From positions 1 through 20,113 of IMG/VR virus record IMGVR_UViG_3300009002_000067: DNA of 20,113 bases; one strand, 5' to 3'. Below, piece after piece: positions 1,015-14,200 of the stretch; position 1 is the first letter of the stretch, and each line of letters begins with the position of its first letter. The notes under the pieces were generated by a model that saw nothing but the letters and a program-made list of their open reading frames with translations, made no database searches and had not been told where the DNA came from. The translations under genes and the position numbers were made by a program. Origin of the DNA: a virus.

Positions 1015-2559
1015 ATGGCTACAGTACAAGAAATAAAAGAGGCTGCTGAACGTAGTCTTATTACCTTCATTAAACTAGTTGCACCTCAACGTGTACTAGG
1101 TAACTGTCATGAGGATGTTTGTAAGTGGTGGACTAGACAAGATTCTAAGACACACCAGCTTCTCTTGTTCCCTCGTGATCACGGTAAGTCAGCTATGGTA
1201 GCTTACAGGGTTGCTTGGGAATTAACTAAGAACCCTACCCTAAGAATTCTCTACATCTCAGCTACATCTAACTTAGCTCAGAAACAGCTCTCGTTTATTA
1301 AGAACATATTCGAATCAGACATACACCAAAAGTATTGGCCTGAACACTTAAACAAAGATGAAAGTAAACGAGAGAAGTGGACTACTTCAGAGATTGCTTT
1401 AGACCATCCTGATAGAAAGAAAGAAGCAATACGTGACCCGTCTATTTTTACTGGTGGTCTTACTACTTCTCTTACAGGGATGCACTGCGATATTGCTGTA
1501 CTCGATGACGTAGTTGTTTTTGAGAATGCTTACACTGGTGAGGGAAGAAACAAGGTTAAGTCACAGTACTCACTTCTATCATCTATTGAGGGTAGTGAAG
1601 CTAAGGAATGGGTAGTAGGTACTAGGTATCACCCTAAGGACTTGTACTCTGACTTGATGGGTATGGAAGAAGATATATACTCAGACAAGGGTGAACTAAC
1701 AGGTAAAGAGAATATCTATGAAGTACTAGAGAGAGCAGTAGAAGACGGAGGGGATGGGACAGGTGATTTCCTTTGGCCTAGACAACTACGTAAAGATGGT
1801 AAGTACTTCGGGTTTGACATTAAGATCTTAGCTAAGAAGAGAGGTCAGTACCTAGACAGGGTACAGTTTAGAGCACAGTACTACAACGATCCAACAGATC
1901 CAGATACACAACCTATAGCCTATGAGAAGTTTCAGTACTATGACCGTAAACATCTAAACAGAGATAATGGTCAGTGGCAGTATCAAGGTAGAAAGTTAAA
2001 CGTTAGTGCAGCAGTTGACTTTGCCTACAGTGTAAGTAAACGAGCTGACTACACGGCTATTGTTGTGATAGGTGTTGACTTTGAGAATAACGTTTATGTC
2101 TTAGACATTGATAGATTTAAGACAGATAAGATCTCTGAGTACTTCAGACACATCCTAGACTTACTTAATAGATGGGACTTCAGAAAGCTACGAGCTGAAT
2201 GTACAGCTGCTCAGTCAGCTATCGTAACAGAGTTAAAAGATAACTACATTAAACCTAACGGTCTAGCTTTAAAGATTGATGAGCATAGACCTAACCGTCA
2301 CCAAGGTTCTAAAGAGGAACGTATAGCTGCTGCTCTTGAACCAAGGTACGACAACTTACAAATGTATCATTACCGAGGTGGTAACTGTCAGGTACTAGAA
2401 GAAGAACTAGTATCTTACAATCCAGCACATGATGACTGCAAAGACTGTTTAGCTGCAGCCGTAGAGGTAGCAATTAAACCGAGCATGACAACAATTAGAA
2501 GACATAAAACCGACAATAATGTCGTATTCCACCCTAAGTTTGGTGGAGTAGCATTTTAA
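1015..2559 (+). CDS. terL: terminase large subunit (packaging ATPase and nuclease)
   Basis: A 514-residue DNA-packaging motor protein. It hydrolyses ATP to push DNA through the portal and cuts the concatemer. The ATPase half shows a Walker A-like PRDHGKSA at residues 53-60 (Lys58), a Walker B DIAVLDD at 159-165 and a coupling-type GTR motif near 202-204 in WVVGTRYHP. The RNase H-like nuclease half shows Asp335 in AAVDFAYS, Glu395 in RAECTAAQ and Asp473/Asp477 in the HDDCKDCLAAA segment, which fit the usual metal-binding acids. It is somewhat shorter than T7 gp19. No small terminase gene lies immediately upstream, where a fibre gene sits instead. The gene ends just before a promoter that drives portal. 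Confidence 0.95.
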   Translation: MATVQEIKEAAERSLITFIKLVAPQRVLGNCHEDVCKWWTRQDSKTHQLLLFPRDHGKSAMVAYRVAWELTKNPTLRILYISATSNLAQKQLSFIKNIFESDIHQKYWPEHLNKDESKREKWTTSEIALDHPDRKKEAIRDPSIFTGGLTTSLTGMHCDIAVLDDVVVFENAYTGEGRNKVKSQYSLLSSIEGSEAKEWVVGTRYHPKDLYSDLMGMEEDIYSDKGELTGKENIYEVLERAVEDGGDGTGDFLWPRQLRKDGKYFGFDIKILAKKRGQYLDRVQFRAQYYNDPTDPDTQPIAYEKFQYYDRKHLNRDNGQWQYQGRKLNVSAAVDFAYSVSKRADYTAIVVIGVDFENNVYVLDIDRFKTDKISEYFRHILDLLNRWDFRKLRAECTAAQSAIVTELKDNYIKPNGLALKIDEHRPNRHQGSKEERIAAALEPRYDNLQMYHYRGGNCQVLEEELVSYNPAHDDCKDCLAAAVEVAIKPSMTTIRRHKTDNNVVFHPKFGGVAF

Positions 2560-2562
2560 ATG

Positions 2563-2591
2563 TTGACATATTTATCACACTGTGATATAAT
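2563..2591 (+). promoter_or_regulatory. consensus sigma70-type promoter for portal and head genes
   Basis: The -35 hexamer TTGACA is at 2563-2568 and the -10 hexamer TATAAT at 2586-2591, separated by exactly 17 bp; both match the consensus fully. The predicted start of transcription is about 2598, giving a leader of about 22 nt that contains GGAG at 2612-2615, 5 nt before the portal ATG. It lies in the only gap (2560-2620) of the packaging and head block. Such a perfect site implies strong transcription by host-type RNA polymerase. Its spacer and -10 are covered by inverted repeats, listed separately. Confidence 0.85.
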
Positions 2592-2598
2592 TATCACA
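2573..2598. repeat. operator-like alternating inverted repeats over the portal promoter
   Basis: Three 7-bp half-sites alternate in orientation: TATCACA (2573-2579), TGTGATA (2581-2587) and TATCACA (2592-2598). The first pair forms a palindrome around a single C; the second pair forms one around TAAT. They occupy the promoter spacer, the -10 and the expected transcription start, so a bound protein should block RNA polymerase. The TGTGA/TCACA halves recall CRP sites, but the second pair has 8 bp between them rather than the CRP spacing of 6. A repressor operator is an inference. Confidence 0.55.
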
Positions 2599-2620
2599 TA
2601 GCTAGGAACTTGGAGTTAAA

Positions 2621-4414
2621 ATGGCTGGCACTACTATTGACATTGAAAGTATTATAGATCCTCATACCCTAGCTGTGGAGATAGCTAACCGTTGGTCTTC
2701 ATGGAATAGCTCTCGTTCTTCTAAGTTAGAAGAGTGGAAAGAGTTACGTAATTATATCTATGCTACAGATACTAGAACAACTAGTAACAATAAGTTACCT
2801 TGGTCTAACTCAACAACTACACCTAAGCTAACACAAATTGCTGACAACCTACATGCTAACTACTTTGCTGCATTGTTCCCTCAGAAAAGATGGTTCAGGT
2901 TTGAAGCTACAGATGCCTCATCAGATGTTAAGATTAAACGAGACATCATACAAGCATACATGGAAAACAAGCTAAGTCAATCTGACTTTGTTAACACAAC
3001 AAGTAAACTTATTAATGACTACATACAATACGGTAACTGTTTTGCTACTGTAGACTTCAAAAGAAAAGTTACTAACTTTGAAGATGGTGACAGAGTAGTT
3101 AACTACGTAGGACCTAAGCTAGTACGTATCTCACCTTTTGATATCTGCTTTAACCCAGTAGCTGCTGAGTTCTCAGATACACCAAAGATTGTTAGATCTA
3201 TTCTAACCTTAGGTGAAGTACAACGTATGGTTGAGACATCACCTGACAAAGACTACATGAGTGGTGTGTTTGATAAGATGCTCGGCAATAGAGGATCAGC
3301 TAAAGGTAACGAAGTAGATGTAGATAAGTCAGAAGGTTTTGTAGCTGATGGTTTTTCTAACTTAACTGATTACTATGAATCTGACTACGTAGAAGTATTA
3401 ACATTCTATGGTGACATCTACGATACACAAAAAGGTGAGTTCCTAAACAACAGAGTTATTACTATCGTTGATAGAGCCTACGTTTTATCTAATGAAGAGA
3501 ACCCTAGTTTCTTAGGTAGAGATCCTATCTTCCATGTAGGTTGGAGAGACAGACCAGATAACTTGTACAGCATGGGACCACTAGATAACTTAGTCGGTAT
3601 GCAGTACAGAATAGATCACTTAGAGAACCTCAAGGCAGATGTATTTGATCAGATAGCTTATCCTGTATTAAAGATAAGAGGTGACGTAGAGGACTTTGAC
3701 TTCGAACCTAATGCTCGTATATACTTAGGAGATGAAGGTGATGTAGGTTACCTAGTACCTGACAGTACAGCATTGAATGCTGACTTCCAAATACAGAACC
3801 TAGAAGCTAAGATGGAGATGATGGCTGGAGCACCAAGAGAAGCTATGGGTATCCGTAGTGCAGGTGAGAAGACAGCCTTTGAAGTTAACCAACTTATGAC
3901 TGCAGCAGGTAGAATATTCCAGCACAAGACTGCTCACTTCGAGAGAGTATTCTTAGAGCCAATCTTAAATGCTATGCTAGAAGTATCTAGACGTAACATG
4001 GATTATGAAGACACAGCTAAGGTACTAAACGAAGATACTGGTTTGTATTTCTTCACACAGATTACAAGAGATGACATTAAGTCTAACGGTAAGATTGTAC
4101 CGATGGGTGCTAGACACTTTGCTGAAAGAGCACAACGTGTACAGAACCTAACTACTATGTACCAGATCAAAGCATCTGATCCAAGTGTTGCATCACATCT
4201 ATCAGGTAAAGAGTTTGCTAGATTGTTAGCTGATGAACTAGGTGAACCAGCTCTATTTGGTGAGAACGTTGCAGTATCTGAACAACTAGAGACTCAGAAG
4301 GTTGTCACAGAGGCACAGGTTGAGTATGAGGCTGATCAAGAAGAAAAAATAGAAGAAGGTAGCCAAGAGCTAGAGATGGCTACTGAGGAAGCTCCTGAGG
4401 AGCCTATTGAATGA
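2621..4414 (+). CDS. portal (head-tail connector) protein
   Basis: A 597-residue portal protein, expected to form the dodecameric ring at one capsid vertex through which DNA enters and leaves, and to bind terminase, internal proteins and tail. The identification rests on family-typical segments (WKELRNYIYATDT, LPWSNSTTTPKL, ADNLHANYFAALFPQ near residues 40-90; the DNLVGMQYRIDHLENLKAD helix near 325-343; MAGAPREAMGIRSAGEKTAFEV near 400) and on its place between terminase and scaffold. The last 45 or so residues are strongly acidic and Glu-rich, probably a flexible tail. A good GGAG ribosome site at 2612-2615 supports this ATG. The gene overlaps the next by 4 nt (ATGA), implying coupled translation. 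It has its own promoter just upstream. Confidence 0.93.
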   Translation: MAGTTIDIESIIDPHTLAVEIANRWSSWNSSRSSKLEEWKELRNYIYATDTRTTSNNKLPWSNSTTTPKLTQIADNLHANYFAALFPQKRWFRFEATDASSDVKIKRDIIQAYMENKLSQSDFVNTTSKLINDYIQYGNCFATVDFKRKVTNFEDGDRVVNYVGPKLVRISPFDICFNPVAAEFSDTPKIVRSILTLGEVQRMVETSPDKDYMSGVFDKMLGNRGSAKGNEVDVDKSEGFVADGFSNLTDYYESDYVEVLTFYGDIYDTQKGEFLNNRVITIVDRAYVLSNEENPSFLGRDPIFHVGWRDRPDNLYSMGPLDNLVGMQYRIDHLENLKADVFDQIAYPVLKIRGDVEDFDFEPNARIYLGDEGDVGYLVPDSTALNADFQIQNLEAKMEMMAGAPREAMGIRSAGEKTAFEVNQLMTAAGRIFQHKTAHFERVFLEPILNAMLEVSRRNMDYEDTAKVLNEDTGLYFFTQITRDDIKSNGKIVPMGARHFAERAQRVQNLTTMYQIKASDPSVASHLSGKEFARLLADELGEPALFGENVAVSEQLETQKVVTEAQVEYEADQEEKIEEGSQELEMATEEAPEEPIE

Positions 4415-4653
4415 AGGCAGCTTGGTTCAAAGACTGTAAGACAAAGAAAGATAAAGAGGCGGTAGCACAAACACTGCAATCTCAGAGAGAGGGATTAGAC
4501 CGTCTTAAAGAAATCCTAGAGCCTATGCTAAAGGATACAACCCCTGCAAATGATTATGATTCCCCTTCTTGGGCTTATAAACAGGCAGATCGAAACGGAT
4601 ACAACAGAGCAGTGACCACTGTGTTGGATCTAATTAACTTAGATAAGGAATAA
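4411..4653 (+). CDS. small conserved-looking phage protein between portal and scaffold
   Basis: An 80-residue soluble, charged protein. Its ATG overlaps the portal stop in an ATGA, so it is probably translated by re-initiation after portal. The first half is Lys/Glu-rich and likely helical (KTKKDKEAVAQTLQSQREGLDRLKEIL); the second has the distinctive SPSWAYKQADRNGYNRA segment at about residues 52-68, a pattern I have seen in small proteins at the same place in other podovirus head blocks. No enzymatic motif or membrane segment is visible. A role in head assembly or portal function is possible from position alone. An AAGGA ribosome site for the scaffold gene lies inside its 3' end at 4645-4649. 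Confidence 0.75.
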   Translation: MKAAWFKDCKTKKDKEAVAQTLQSQREGLDRLKEILEPMLKDTTPANDYDSPSWAYKQADRNGYNRAVTTVLDLINLDKE

Positions 4654-4655
4654 CA

Positions 4656-5423
4656 ATGAGTGTATTTTCTGAGGATCAGGTGACCCCTGCAACACAGAGT
4701 GAACAAGTATCAGCATTTGAAGAGCCAACCAGCCCTTCAGTCTTGGGTGATCTTGTAGGAGACGGACGTAAGTTCAACGATGTAGAGGCGTTAGCAAAAG
4801 GAAAGTTAGAAGCAGACAGGTTCATTGAACAAATGAAACATGAGAATGCTACTTTAAAAGCTGACCTAGAGAAACAAGCCTACAGACTTGGAGTTACAGC
4901 TAAGATGGAAGAAATGGCCTCGGCAACCACAGCCGAACTTCCTGATCCTAATAATAATAATAGTGGCACTTCGGATACAGCTAATACCCAGTTTAGTTCG
5001 AGTGAAGCAAACATTGAGAGCCTAGTAGAACAGACCCTGAAGAGGCGAGAGCAAGAGAGTTCTGCAAAGAATAACATTGCAATCGTTGAATCGGAACTTG
5101 AAAAAGCCTATGGGACTGAAGCATCTTCTGCTGTAAAACAGAAATCTTCTGAACTAGGTTTGCCAATGAATGAGTTACAAGGTATGGCTGCTAAGTCACC
5201 TGCTGCGTTTATGCAGTTGATGGGTAAGTCAGCACCAAGTATTTCACCAGTGGTTCAAGGGAGCATTCGCACTGAAGGTTCTACAATGCAAGCATCCTCT
5301 GAAAAAGACTTTGGCTACTATCAAAGACTTCGAAGAGAAAACTCGTCACAATACTACAAACCATCTACTCAACGTGCAATGATGGCTGATGCCGAACGTT
5401 TGGGTGATAATTTTTATAGATAA
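4656..5423 (+). CDS. capsid assembly scaffolding protein
   Basis: A 255-residue protein immediately upstream of the major capsid gene, the standard place for scaffold. Scaffold guides capsid subunits into a procapsid around the portal and leaves before or during packaging. Residues 33-64 carry the family-like VGDGRKFNDVEALAKGKLEAD segment followed by a helix (FIEQMKHEN) that leads into a coiled region. The middle is a disordered linker containing four Asn in a row (residues 99-102) encoded by an AAT repeat. The C-terminal part includes a conserved-looking end (KDFGYYQRLRRENSSQYYKPSTQRAMM is split across 223-250). The acidic, helical, low-complexity composition fits. An AAGGA site 6 nt upstream of the ATG supports the start. 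Confidence 0.85.
   Translation: MSVFSEDQVTPATQSEQVSAFEEPTSPSVLGDLVGDGRKFNDVEALAKGKLEADRFIEQMKHENATLKADLEKQAYRLGVTAKMEEMASATTAELPDPNNNNSGTSDTANTQFSSSEANIESLVEQTLKRREQESSAKNNIAIVESELEKAYGTEASSAVKQKSSELGLPMNELQGMAAKSPAAFMQLMGKSAPSISPVVQGSIRTEGSTMQASSEKDFGYYQRLRRENSSQYYKPSTQRAMMADAERLGDNFYR
4949..4963. repeat. short AAT triplet repeat in the scaffold gene
   Basis: TAATAATAATAATAG: four consecutive AAT codons at 4950-4961 encode Asn99-Asn102 of the scaffold linker. It is a minor repeat that could vary in length among relatives without breaking the frame. Confidence 0.7.
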
Positions 5424-5434
5424 GGAATAGAACT

Positions 5435-6415
5435 ATGGCTGGTAATACAGTAAGCACTCTAGCTCTCGCAAAAAGAGCAGAAGTTTGGGGTGCAGAATTA
5501 AAAGAGATCTTGCGGGATGAGCTGCAAGGTATGAAATACGTAAATTGGTTGAATGACTTTCCAGATGGGGACACGTTTAAGATCCCATCATTAGGTGATG
5601 CAACTGTTCGTGACTTCTTGAACCAAGCTAACGGTAGTCCGCATACAAACGGAACTGAAGATAACTCAGTTATTTATGATCCGATTGATGATGCACAGTT
5701 TACCTTTAGTATCACTGAGTACCTGTCGTCTGCTAACTACATCACCAACAAGGCGATGCAGGATGTATACTACTCAAATCAGATCATGTCTCAGTTTGTG
5801 CCTCTACAAGAACGTGCCTTAATGGAACGTCTAGAGACAGACATCATGAAGTTAGGTCAAGACCAAACAGCTGCTGATCCTAACACTATCAACGGTGTTG
5901 CTCACCGTATGATTGGTTCAGGTACTGATGGTAAAATTGCAGTTGAAGACTTTGCTAAAGCTCTTCGTGCATTAAAAACTGGTAAAGTACCACAGAAGAA
6001 CCTAGTGGCTATTGTTGATCCATCAGTTGAATTTGAAATGAATACAATTTCAAACTTAACAAGTGTATCAAACAACCCACGTTGGGAAGGTATCGTCAAC
6101 TCAGGTATCGCATCTGGTATGTCTTTCATTGCTAACATCTACGGTTTTGATGTATACACATCTAACTACTTAGCTACAAAGTCTTCAGAAACTATCAGTG
6201 GTTCAGCTGCTCCAGCTAACGCAATCAACAACATGTTCTTCTCTGCTGACCAAGCAGTGCAGCCATTTGTTGGTGCATGGAGACAGATGCCAAATGTGGA
6301 CACTGAGTACAACAAAGATTACCAACGTACAGAGTTTGTTACTACTGCACGTTACGGTCTTAAATTGTACCGTCCAGAGAACTTGGTTTCTGTTCTTACA
6401 AAGCCATTGGCTTAG
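5435..6415 (+). CDS. major capsid protein
   Basis: A 326-residue coat protein, assigned from position directly after scaffold and from family-like features of HK97-fold capsid proteins: an N-terminal helix (VSTLALAKRAEVWGAEL), a beta-rich E-loop-like region with GDTFKIPSLGDATVRDFL at about 45-65, the long helical stretch around YYSNQIMSQFVPLQERALMERLETDIMKLG at about 110-140 (spine helix), and a C-terminal DYQRTEFVTTARYGLKLYRPENLVSVLT. Several hundred copies form the icosahedral shell. A strong AAGGA (5422-5426) overlaps the scaffold stop, with 8 nt to the ATG, as expected for the most abundant virion protein. A hairpin and a new promoter follow it. There is no protease gene in the block, and no N-terminal delta domain is evident. 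Confidence 0.9.
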   Translation: MAGNTVSTLALAKRAEVWGAELKEILRDELQGMKYVNWLNDFPDGDTFKIPSLGDATVRDFLNQANGSPHTNGTEDNSVIYDPIDDAQFTFSITEYLSSANYITNKAMQDVYYSNQIMSQFVPLQERALMERLETDIMKLGQDQTAADPNTINGVAHRMIGSGTDGKIAVEDFAKALRALKTGKVPQKNLVAIVDPSVEFEMNTISNLTSVSNNPRWEGIVNSGIASGMSFIANIYGFDVYTSNYLATKSSETISGSAAPANAINNMFFSADQAVQPFVGAWRQMPNVDTEYNKDYQRTEFVTTARYGLKLYRPENLVSVLTKPLA

Positions 6416-6430
6416 TGACATAAATACAAG

Positions 6431-6462
6431 GGGAGGGGAGAAATCTCCTCCTCTATCTCTTT
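6431..6462 (+). terminator. weak terminator-like hairpin after the capsid gene
   Basis: The sequence 6435-6440 (GGGGAG) pairs with 6445-6450 (CTCCTC), including one G-T pair, around an AAAT loop, with partial extension at 6431-6433. It is followed by a short T-rich run TATCTCTTT (6454-6462). The tract is poor in T, so this is at best a leaky terminator or an mRNA 3'-end stabiliser. T7 also has its main terminator just after the capsid gene. Confidence 0.5.
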
Positions 6463-6467
6463 AACAC

Positions 6468-6496
6468 TTGACAACTATTTTACTTATGTGTATAAT
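6468..6496 (+). promoter_or_regulatory. consensus sigma70-type promoter for tail and ejection genes
   Basis: TTGACA at 6468-6473 and TATAAT at 6491-6496 are separated by exactly 17 bp, a full consensus match like the portal promoter. The predicted start is about 6503, giving a leader of about 32 nt with AAGGA at 6520-6524 before the ATG at 6535. The gap 6416-6534 is the longest non-coding stretch in the window. Unlike the portal promoter, it has no clear inverted repeats over the -10. Confidence 0.85.
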
Positions 6497-6534
6497 AGTC
6501 TTAACAAGTCTCCCCTACTAAGGACTTATTTACA

Positions 6535-11251: not shown

Positions 11252-14200
11252 ATGGATATGATCCCAACTATTGAAGATACTTCTACAACTCTTGAAGAAG
11301 AAATGGGTCTACTTGATACTAAGAAAAAGTATGTAGATCCTGCCTCTCCTAATGAGTTAAGAAAAGTAGATGAACAAGCTACATTATTAAATGTAGATCC
11401 TTCAGAAGTTTCTAAAACTAGAGTAAATGAAGATTCATCCTATGATGATTTAATTAAACAGTACTCAAGTCAAGAGGTGTATCTAGAATATCTAAGGGAT
11501 TTAAACACCCCTGTAGATGAAGCAGCTCAAATGTTATTTGATCGTAACAACAAACTACAAGATAGTGTGGCTTCGTCAGAATACCTTATGAGATCAGCTC
11601 TTATGGCTGATGACGAAAGTATGAACCCTGAAGCTGCACATTTATTTAGTAACTATGAACTGGCTTTAGAAATAATATCTAAAAAGGTAGAAGAAGAAGA
11701 TCCTTCAACATTTAAGTTTATAGCAGGTGGTTTCCTTGAATTTGGTAGGGAAATATCTGTAGGTATATTTGAAAACCTTACTAAACAAGATCAAAAGTTA
11801 TCTACTGAATTGAGCAACGCCCTTCTTTTACCAACAGAAGATTTTGAAATTTATCTTAAAGATAAAATAGAAACATACCAAGACAGGGGTTTATTTAATT
11901 TACGTAAAGCTAAGAACGTAGAAGAGATAAGACAAAGACTTGAGGAATTTGGTACAGATAAAGATGCTTCTTTAAAACAATTCATAGCCCTTGCTGAAAT
12001 AGCAACAGCAGGTACAACCAGAGGTCTTGGAAAACTTTCTATAGTGGCTGGACAAGCAACTAAAAGAAAATTATCTGAGGCTACACTAAGTACACTTGAA
12101 AAAGTTATGTCATCTAAGACAGGAGCTGAATTAGTAACAGCTACTAGAGGTCCTATAGCTGGAGCTAAGGTTACAGTTAAACAATTAAATACTAAACATG
12201 CTCCTGACCGTGTAGCAGGTAGTGCAGGTCCTACCACTCTAGATCCCTTCCAAGGTGCTCTACCTACTAACACTCCCCATGCTGCTACAATTATAAATGA
12301 GACAAACAAGTCTAATATCTTTGATGCCCTAGTAAAGATGATGGGATTTAAAGGTAAACAAACTGTTACTGGTAGAGCTTTTGATTATGGTAATCTTGAT
12401 GAACTTGTAGATCAAGTAAACAAGAGAATTATAAAGTCTTCTAATAACCCTGTAGTAAAAATAATTTCTAAACCTAGTGCTATTGCAGACGAAGGATCAG
12501 ATACCTTTGTTTATACTGCAACATTAGGAAATGCTATAGATGGTTTACCTTTTCCTACTAAAGAAGCTGCACTAAGAGTTGTTAAAAACAACCCAGCATA
12601 CAAGGTAGTAGAAGCACCAAGAACTATACGTAAAGAAGTTGATGAAGGTGTAGAAAAACTTCCAGAAGTAAAAGAAAAAGATGGGTATTATCTAGAATAC
12701 AGTGAAAGACTAGACACTCGTAAACTAGCAGAAGAACTAGAGGATATAAACTTACAAGAAAACATCATTGTGAGAACGATAAATAATGTATTGGCTGCAC
12801 CTCAGACAATTTTAGGAGCTAGGGTAGGTTCTTTAATAAACGCATCAGAGAATGTTACAATACGAGCTGGTCAACTTGCAAATGAAGCATTTAAGTCAGT
12901 AAGAAAACTAGACAAACGTAGCTTCAATGAACTAGAAACAGTTATGCTAAGTTACCGAGATGGTGTTTTAGGTGACATGGAGACAGGTCTATCTTCTTTA
13001 AGAGCTGCTCCTACAGATGCTGAGTTTACCAGAGACTTCTTTTCTATCTTCGGTAAAATACCTACAGAATCTCAGTTAAAAGGATATGCTGCCTTAACTG
13101 ATTTAAACAATGCAGCATGGAATATAAAAGCTACCGACATACTAAAGAGAGTAGCAGAAAAAAATGGTCGTACTGTTACAGTAACAGAAGGTACAGATGG
13201 AACTATGTACAATACTATAGGTTATGCAGTTGATAGTATAGCTGATGAAGTTGTTGTGTTTAGTAGATTAACAGGTCAAGTAACAAAAGAAACTTTAGGT
13301 GATCGTATTGCCTACAAACTAGACGAACCTTTTGAAGCAGCTGATGGTATCTTTTATGACCATGTAACTGATGTACTAGATTCTAGAGTACCTATAAAAA
13401 CTGATGTACTAGGATATAATGTAGGTGGTACAAGAAACAATGAAGGTCTTCGTCACTTTATAGGTAAGGTCTTTACTAACTTAGTAGCTGGTAAAGGAGA
13501 AGTAGACGGTGGTTTCAGAACACTGCTAGGTTCTTTCAGTAACAAAGAAGCAAGAAAAGCTGTTAACGAATTAAATAACATTCAGAAGGCTTTAGACCCC
13601 TTTCTTAAAGTAGCAGGTTTAAAAGGTATAAGAAAACTTACCTTAACTGGGGATGACTTAGTAAAAGTTAATGCTGTTATTGCTCGTAATACTACATGGA
13701 ACCCTCATGTATCTGACTTCACATCTTTAAAGAAAATTGCTGAGAGACACGGAGAATCTTTTGCTCCTGATAGTGAGTTTATTACTAGAGGTAGAGACGA
13801 AAGTCTTGATATGTTAGGTAGCAAAGCTGAAGGTATGACTGCTGGGGAATATCAGTCTATGAGGGTAAGTCGTAAACGTGGTGACACCCCACCTATGACT
13901 TATGGTGGAGCACAAACAATAAATCAAAGCCCTATACAAAACATAATAGATCAGTTTAAATCTGAGACATACAGATACTCTCACTATAAAGCTACTCAAT
14001 CTGCTGTAAACGGATGGGTGCAAAAAGCTAATAGATTAAAGAATGTTGAATTTGCTAAAGGTGTAGACCCGAAAACTCTTACACCTGAAGAGTTTATACA
14101 GACAGCTAAAGTTAGTCCAAAGAATAGCCCAGAGAATGCAGAACTAAGATCACAACAAAGAGCAATAAAATCTAGATTAGGTCTTATGGAAAGAACAGAT

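Follow-up and report, generated by a model that had tools for sequence, protein, structure and literature searches.

A conserved operator-like dyad centred on the -10 hexamer of the portal promoter in Siovirus-like roseophages

The window analysed here is a whole IMG/VR virus record of 20,113 bases from a Siovirus-like roseophage (Zobellviridae, Cobavirinae). The 61-bp gap between its terL and portal genes contains a sigma70 promoter, P3, with an 18-bp dyad centred on its -10 hexamer, and relatives of the phage keep this dyad with paired changes in the two arms. Judged from the sequences compared, the dyad is very probably a real conserved element of the operator type. The fuller explanation, that P3 is timed by a dimeric protein which is probably encoded by the phage and probably shared with sites in the terminal repeats, is moderately favoured as a whole.

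Cobaviruses (the SIO1 group) are marine phages found worldwide, the hosts of Siovirus are Rhodobacteraceae and, to our knowledge, Cobaviruses have no RNA polymerase of their own. No description of how their early, middle and late genes are timed with host sigma70 only was present in the papers found, and no description of Siovirus promoters was met in the literature searched. The dyad of P3 and its match in the terminal repeats provide a handle on such timing, with a 36-bp probe for the regulator and the natural arm variants as a set for specificity tests.

The portal promoter and the gene unit behind it

The terL-portal stretch of the window shows matches of about 79% to Celeribacter phage P12053L and Roseobacter phage SIO1, and the closer relative G010 is 98.5% identical to the window across terL-capsid. 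The earlier note described an exact TTGACA-N17-TATAAT before portal, and this promoter was confirmed at 2563-2591 with a 12/12 match to the consensus. The window contains two promoters of this quality, P3 and P2, the latter 3' of the capsid gene, in comparison to none for a reversed-pattern control. The features of the region are collected in Table 1.

Table 1. Features of the terL-capsid region of the window
Feature	Positions	Strand	Basis or remark
Terminase large subunit (terL)	1015..2559	+	PHROG 38
Degenerate copy GTTGACA-TATT-TATCACA, 19 bp upstream of main dyad	2562..2579		Partly conserved only
-35 hexamer TTGACA of portal promoter (P3)	2563..2568	+	Identical in 32/32 distinct relatives' gaps
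Operator-like 7-4-7 dyad TGTGATA-TAAT-TATCACA (TGT-N12-ACA), centred on -10	2581..2598		Conserved palindrome
-10 hexamer TATAAT, extended -10 TG ahead; TATTAT in most relatives	2586..2591	+	Sequence and relatives' gaps
Predicted transcription start region	2598	+	Inferred from -10 spacing
GGAG ribosome-binding site of portal	2612..2615	+	Sequence
Portal (head-tail connector), first gene of P3 unit	2621..4414	+	PF12236; PHROG 332
80-aa protein (p80) in P3 unit	4411..4653	+	PHROG 8956, function unassigned
Scaffold-like protein in P3 unit	4656..5423	+	PHROG 7931; ICBM1 homologue annotated scaffolding
Major capsid protein, last gene of P3 unit	5435..6415	+	PHROG 267
Intrinsic terminator closing P3 unit	6429..6454	+	Kept in relatives
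Second perfect promoter P2, TTGACA-N17-TATAAT, without -10-centred dyad	6468..6496	+	Sequence and relatives

Conservation was assessed in 32 distinct promoter regions from the terL-portal gaps of relatives, comprising 13 distinct dyads. TTGACA and the N17 spacing are unchanged in all 32, and the -10 hexamer is TATTAT or TATAAT (TATWAT type) with two exceptions, both in the centre of the hexamer.

The terminator hairpin behind the capsid gene has a folding energy of -18.9 kcal/mol (z -2.9). Since relatives keep both this terminator and P2 3' of the capsid gene, P3 heads a discrete portal-p80-scaffold-capsid unit. The terL-portal gap had been called the only gap of the packaging block, a description that has to be abandoned since 6416-6534 is also a promoter-bearing gap in the head block; in its 6429-6496 part the terminator is followed directly by P2. 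In most Siovirus genomes P2 and the late-arm promoter P1 have GTGTATAATAGTCTTAACAAG in common, as far as the beginning of the leader.

Promoter and dyad are present in all Siovirus gaps sampled. In 24 distinct distant relatives on the side of the sister genus Veravirus (portal identity 65-78%) the end of the upstream gene reaches or crosses the portal start codon, leaving no terL-portal gap and no promoter. In ICBM2 terL and portal overlap, and the phage has neither the dyad nor the terminal-repeat sites, though it shares its host with ICBM1. Promoter and dyad thus came or went as a unit, gap and promoter being absent together on the Veravirus side.

Conservation of the dyad and paired changes in its arms

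Three half-sites are present in the P3 region: TATCACA at 2573-2579, TGTGATA at 2581-2587 and TATCACA at 2592-2598. TATCACA or TGTGATA occurs four times in the window against a chance mean of 3.5, and three of the four copies fall within 26 bp. A lone dyad with 7-bp arms is not significant by itself in 20 kb, and the significance of this one derives from its conservation in relatives rather than from its single occurrence.

Across the 32 variants pairs 1-7 of the dyad are complementary in 94, 100, 100, 100, 78, 100 and 100%, respectively, and 2581-2598 was the best among all palindrome centres and lengths tried. The consensus is TGTKNTA-N4-TANMACA. The part common to the variants is TGT-N12-ACA, with the first T in 30/32 (A in 2/32) and the other bases in 32/32, and the TA..TA within the dyad does not vary either. 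Each genome has a single copy of the strict 18-bp form.

The arms fall into several types: TGTGATA/TATCACA in the window, TGTGTTA/TAACACA in SIO1 and most others, TGTGGTA/TATCACA, and TGTTGTA/TACAACA (class 2) with close variants. When the dyads were placed on a portal tree (44 genes), four changes of position 4 were seen in the left arm and four in the right, in the same clades, and arms of the TGTGWTA/TAWCACA kind had switched to the TGTTGTA/TACAACA type in four separate clades, both arms jointly. Shuffling of arms among the 13 distinct dyads gave p = 0.003 for positions 4 and 5, a statistic that still includes the relatedness of the phages. If the gap recombined, the independent paired events could be fewer, and the four switches would in part represent one moved allele.

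A conserved dyad symmetry with paired arm changes is what the operator of a dimeric protein would display. The earlier note had taken a strong promoter under symmetric sites as a sign of control by a repressor, and so possibly of the timing of head genes, and had reasoned that half-sites lost in relatives and lacking other copies would speak against it. The opposite was seen: the -10-centred dyad is kept with its paired changes, and relatives have further TGT-N12-ACA sites in their terminal repeats.

Of the two overlapping palindromes proposed there, 2581-2598 proved to be conserved but the 15-bp palindrome at 2573-2587 did not, its pairs being complementary in 19-94% of the variants, and the idea that the two are of equal standing was rejected. 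On sequence grounds 2573-2587 reads best as the place where the main site adjoins the degenerate copy that begins 19 bp further upstream; the right arm of this copy is the first half-site (2573-2579) and its left arm overlaps the -35. This reading is based on the same TCACA-C-TGT arrangement in the terminal repeats of related phages (TGTCACA-C-TGTTGTA in G010 versus TATCACA-C-TGTGATA in the window).

The symmetry could also be a by-product of the extended -10, the discriminator and shared ancestry in a strong unregulated consensus promoter. The relatives are close, and the -35, the extended -10 TG and the -10 account for much of the left arm. However, the right arm (2592-2598) lies outside the known promoter elements and is invariant save where the left arm varies with it, the class-2 arms are without the extended -10 TG, and P1, P2 and P4 of the same genomes are consensus or near-consensus promoters without such a dyad. 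An unregulated P3 is therefore regarded as rather unlikely.

Related sites in the terminal repeats and candidate binding proteins

Terminal sites were read in the genome ends of relatives; the window record is without its own. The 18-bp TGT-N12-ACA motif was found in the direct terminal repeat at 14 of the 15 Siovirus genome ends examined. The 14 Siovirus records, each with at least one terminal site, contain 31 such sites; 300 Markov simulations gave 2.9 on average and never more than 11. These records represent about three clades, however, and the 31 sites are not independent events. Twelve is the peak among spacings from 4 to 24, and no other spacing reaches 31 sites. Veravirus genome ends lack these terminal sites, with a single TGT-N12-ACA in the spacing scan. 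The ends of four Veravirus-side contigs (L085, L388, L342 and L345) contain repeats TTTGTGATCACAAA or TTTGTGGTCACAAA, made of the Siovirus TGTGR half-site with the halves lacking a spacer.

The terminal half-sites, TGT-[T/G]-[G/A]-[C/T]-A, cover both arm classes of P3. Adjacent sites frequently follow each other at a distance of 18-20 bp, and the intervening gaps are mostly either 0-2 bp or at least about 15 bp long. The conserved terminus is TTGTACATACA, and the array is situated some 35-110 bp inside it; examples are TGTTGCCATTATGCAACA, TGTTGCGCATGGGCCACA and TGTTGTAATTGTGACACA in G003 and TGTGGTATAAATGTCACA, TGTTGTAAAAATAATACA and TGTGGTAATTATGTCACA in G010. A scan with a class-1 dyad matrix revealed a secondary site in P12053L, SIO1, ICBM1 and G001, TGTTGCATAATTATCACA (for ICBM1, TGTTGCATATTTATCACA), close inside the direct terminal repeat; its score is no higher than chance maxima and its value comes from its recurrence at the same place. 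TGT-N12-ACA is also found inside P1 and P2 (TGTATAATAGTCTTAACA), without further symmetry, and is absent from the P1 of G003. In ICBM1 (L137, at about 140-160) and relatives the end of the terminal repeat bears a 7-1-7 palindrome, TGTTATA-N-TATAACA, which holds a -10-like TATACT/TATAAT; most Siovirus ends have it, as does ICBM2, and it may be an early promoter under an operator of its own.

From the dyad and the terminal sites we infer protein binding, repression, a phage origin of the binder and its action at both places. The terL-portal gap would thus provide a dedicated sigma70 promoter for the portal-p80-scaffold-capsid unit ending at the terminator, and the dyad would be the operator of a dimeric DNA-binding protein which, when bound, would keep host RNA polymerase off the full-strength P3 until head proteins are needed; the degenerate site over the -35 may sometimes help binding. 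Negative control by the dyad is somewhat more likely than not. The binder would be an early-made phage protein acting on the genome end and on the capsid promoter, the most likely candidate since the direct terminal repeat, where the early arm begins, holds sites of the same form, and the chance that it is phage-encoded is put at about even. A more specific version, in which one phage protein at the terminal array and the capsid promoter of a strictly lytic podovirus couples head-gene transcription to the state of the genome ends (entry, circularisation, concatemer formation or packaging), is offered tentatively and at a low probability. Its site would exist in two classes of specificity, with TGTG or TGTT arms, between which paired changes have led more than once.

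The search for the binder covered several phage proteins. The early protein gp07, with a winged helix (HTH_39), is encoded by P12053L, SIO1, ICBM1 and G001; it was rejected since no homologue was found in G003, which carries the dyad, and since it is present in the dyad-less ICBM2. gp25 has an HTH-like look but is very acidic and gave no convincing family match, and it was likewise set aside. No other clear regulator was seen among the ICBM1 left-arm proteins scanned, and two further scans for the early regions of class-2 phages gave no contig extending that far. The early/middle genes of ICBM1 (L137) include 12099-12278 and 1535-1918, whose products show a DUF1127 domain and a match to the S-adenosylmethionine-lyase family. 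The temperate-like state that had been considered for the window is not borne out: those early and middle proteins of ICBM1 that were scanned gave no recognisable repressor family, CI/Cro-type or integrase gene, and ICBM1 and ICBM2 are described as strictly lytic (PMC6775973).

A repressor of the host could bind the dyad instead. PpsR/CrtJ-type proteins of Rhodobacteraceae recognise TGT-N12-ACA, frequently placed over the -10 and -35, and this is the very part common to all dyad variants; Siovirus infects Rhodobacteraceae, and the terminal-repeat sites likewise stand in series. The lower CrtJ site of bchC spans the -10 (PMC5362033), and PpsR sites of Dinoroseobacter shibae overlap the -10 and -35 of bchF (PMC10890935). 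Were this so, transcription of the capsid unit would follow the light or redox state of the host, and virion production would be tied to it. The match comprises just six bases, however, and the TA..TA inside the dyad is invariant as well. Site neighbours are mostly 0-2 bp apart here, whereas tandem sites in the literature are separated by 8-9 bp or by much more (PMC4452267), and P3 has no second TGT-N12-ACA, the upstream copy being GTT-N12-ACA at a distance of 1 bp. Finally, ICBM2 has neither set of sites though it grows on the same host as ICBM1, and binding by PpsR/CrtJ is considered improbable.

The same low probability is given to a packaging protein, such as the TerS-like gp57 of ICBM1, binding the terminal array and P3 and so coupling head-gene transcription to packaging. 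The array lies close inside the conserved terminus, and gp57 is the first late-arm protein, small-terminase-like by its position, conserved within Siovirus and only about 31-33% identical to the Veravirus protein; its homologues contain an AT-hook-like RGRP stretch, with a weak AT_hook match in one. Against this, gp57 belongs to a family of unknown function (PHROG 8035) with no recognised terminase domain, and the Siovirus contig L096, with an 81% identical gp57, has a different terminal repeat (2306-2400) with GTTAATGTGATGGATTAAC twice, which are not TGT-N12-ACA sites. The type of site does not track the TerS-like protein, which weakens gp57 as the binder of the array. L096, which keeps P3 and its TerS-like gene unchanged in type despite its different repeats, is the chief sign that P3 and the terminal array can part and that their binder need not be common.

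It is very improbable that the symmetry works in the nucleic acid itself, as an RNA hairpin in read-through transcripts before portal or as a DNA cruciform at the -10, since, although paired changes would also suit a stem and the perfect forms fold at about -6 kcal/mol, the mismatch at pair 5 leaves several variants with a stem of -2 kcal/mol or less stable and one with no stem, a transcript from P3 would be without the left arm, and neither structure needs the -35 and -10 to be kept.

Comparison with known systems

The dyad shares TGTGA/TCACA half-sites with CRP/FNR sites (TGTGA-N6-TCACA; the alternative form is TTGAT-N4-ATCAA). The earlier note had already remarked that its spacing differs from that of a CRP site, and the difference extends to all relatives, in every variant of which it is N8; the TGTTG classes (positions 4-5) also fit poorly, and a CRP site was rejected.

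The exact promoter plus dyad pattern was found in 28 genome contigs, mostly of Clostridia and none alphaproteobacterial, and a search of plasmids found nothing. In several of the 28 it precedes a gene for a small membrane protein followed by a 67-77 aa XRE-type regulator. These small XRE (Cro/CI-type) operons (L271, L277 and L291) resemble P3 in carrying TTGACA-N12-TGTGATATWATTATCACA over the promoter, but belong to unrelated genomes with unrelated genes, and the Siovirus proteins scanned included no recognisable XRE protein. The likeness is probably convergence; at the level of sequence it shows that a dyad of the exact P3 form over a -10 also precedes genes linked to a small HTH protein. In L271, L277, L291 and other Clostridia TTGACA-N12-TGTGATATWATTATCACA is followed by an AGGTGA-N8-TCAC-type element, and the set is an apparent regulon. 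By itself the TGTTGTA dyad is so frequent in viral contigs that it carries no information. Four unrelated phage contigs (L173, L182, L213 and L185) have a TGTTGTATAATTACAACA dyad over the -10, three of the four with TTGACA, and a stem-loop leader, GTCAGCA...TGCTGAC, 3' of it.

P3 resembles lambda-type immunity in that symmetric sites of the repressor type cover a strong phage promoter, but it drives the late capsid unit of a lytic phage in which no CI/Cro-type gene was recognised among the proteins scanned. The row of similar sites that relatives have close inside the genome end recalls the lambda cosB and pac arrays bound by small terminase; unlike these, the type of site is not tied to the TerS-like protein, as L096 demonstrates, and one copy lies over an internal promoter.

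The CrtJ/PpsR operators of the Rhodobacteraceae photosynthesis promoters bchC and bchF have, like P3, a TGT-N12-ACA dyad over the -10, and more than one site per regulated region. The phage sites differ from them in the additional invariant TA..TA and in spacing, with neighbours 0-2 bp apart, and they stand in the capsid promoter and the terminal repeat of a lytic phage.
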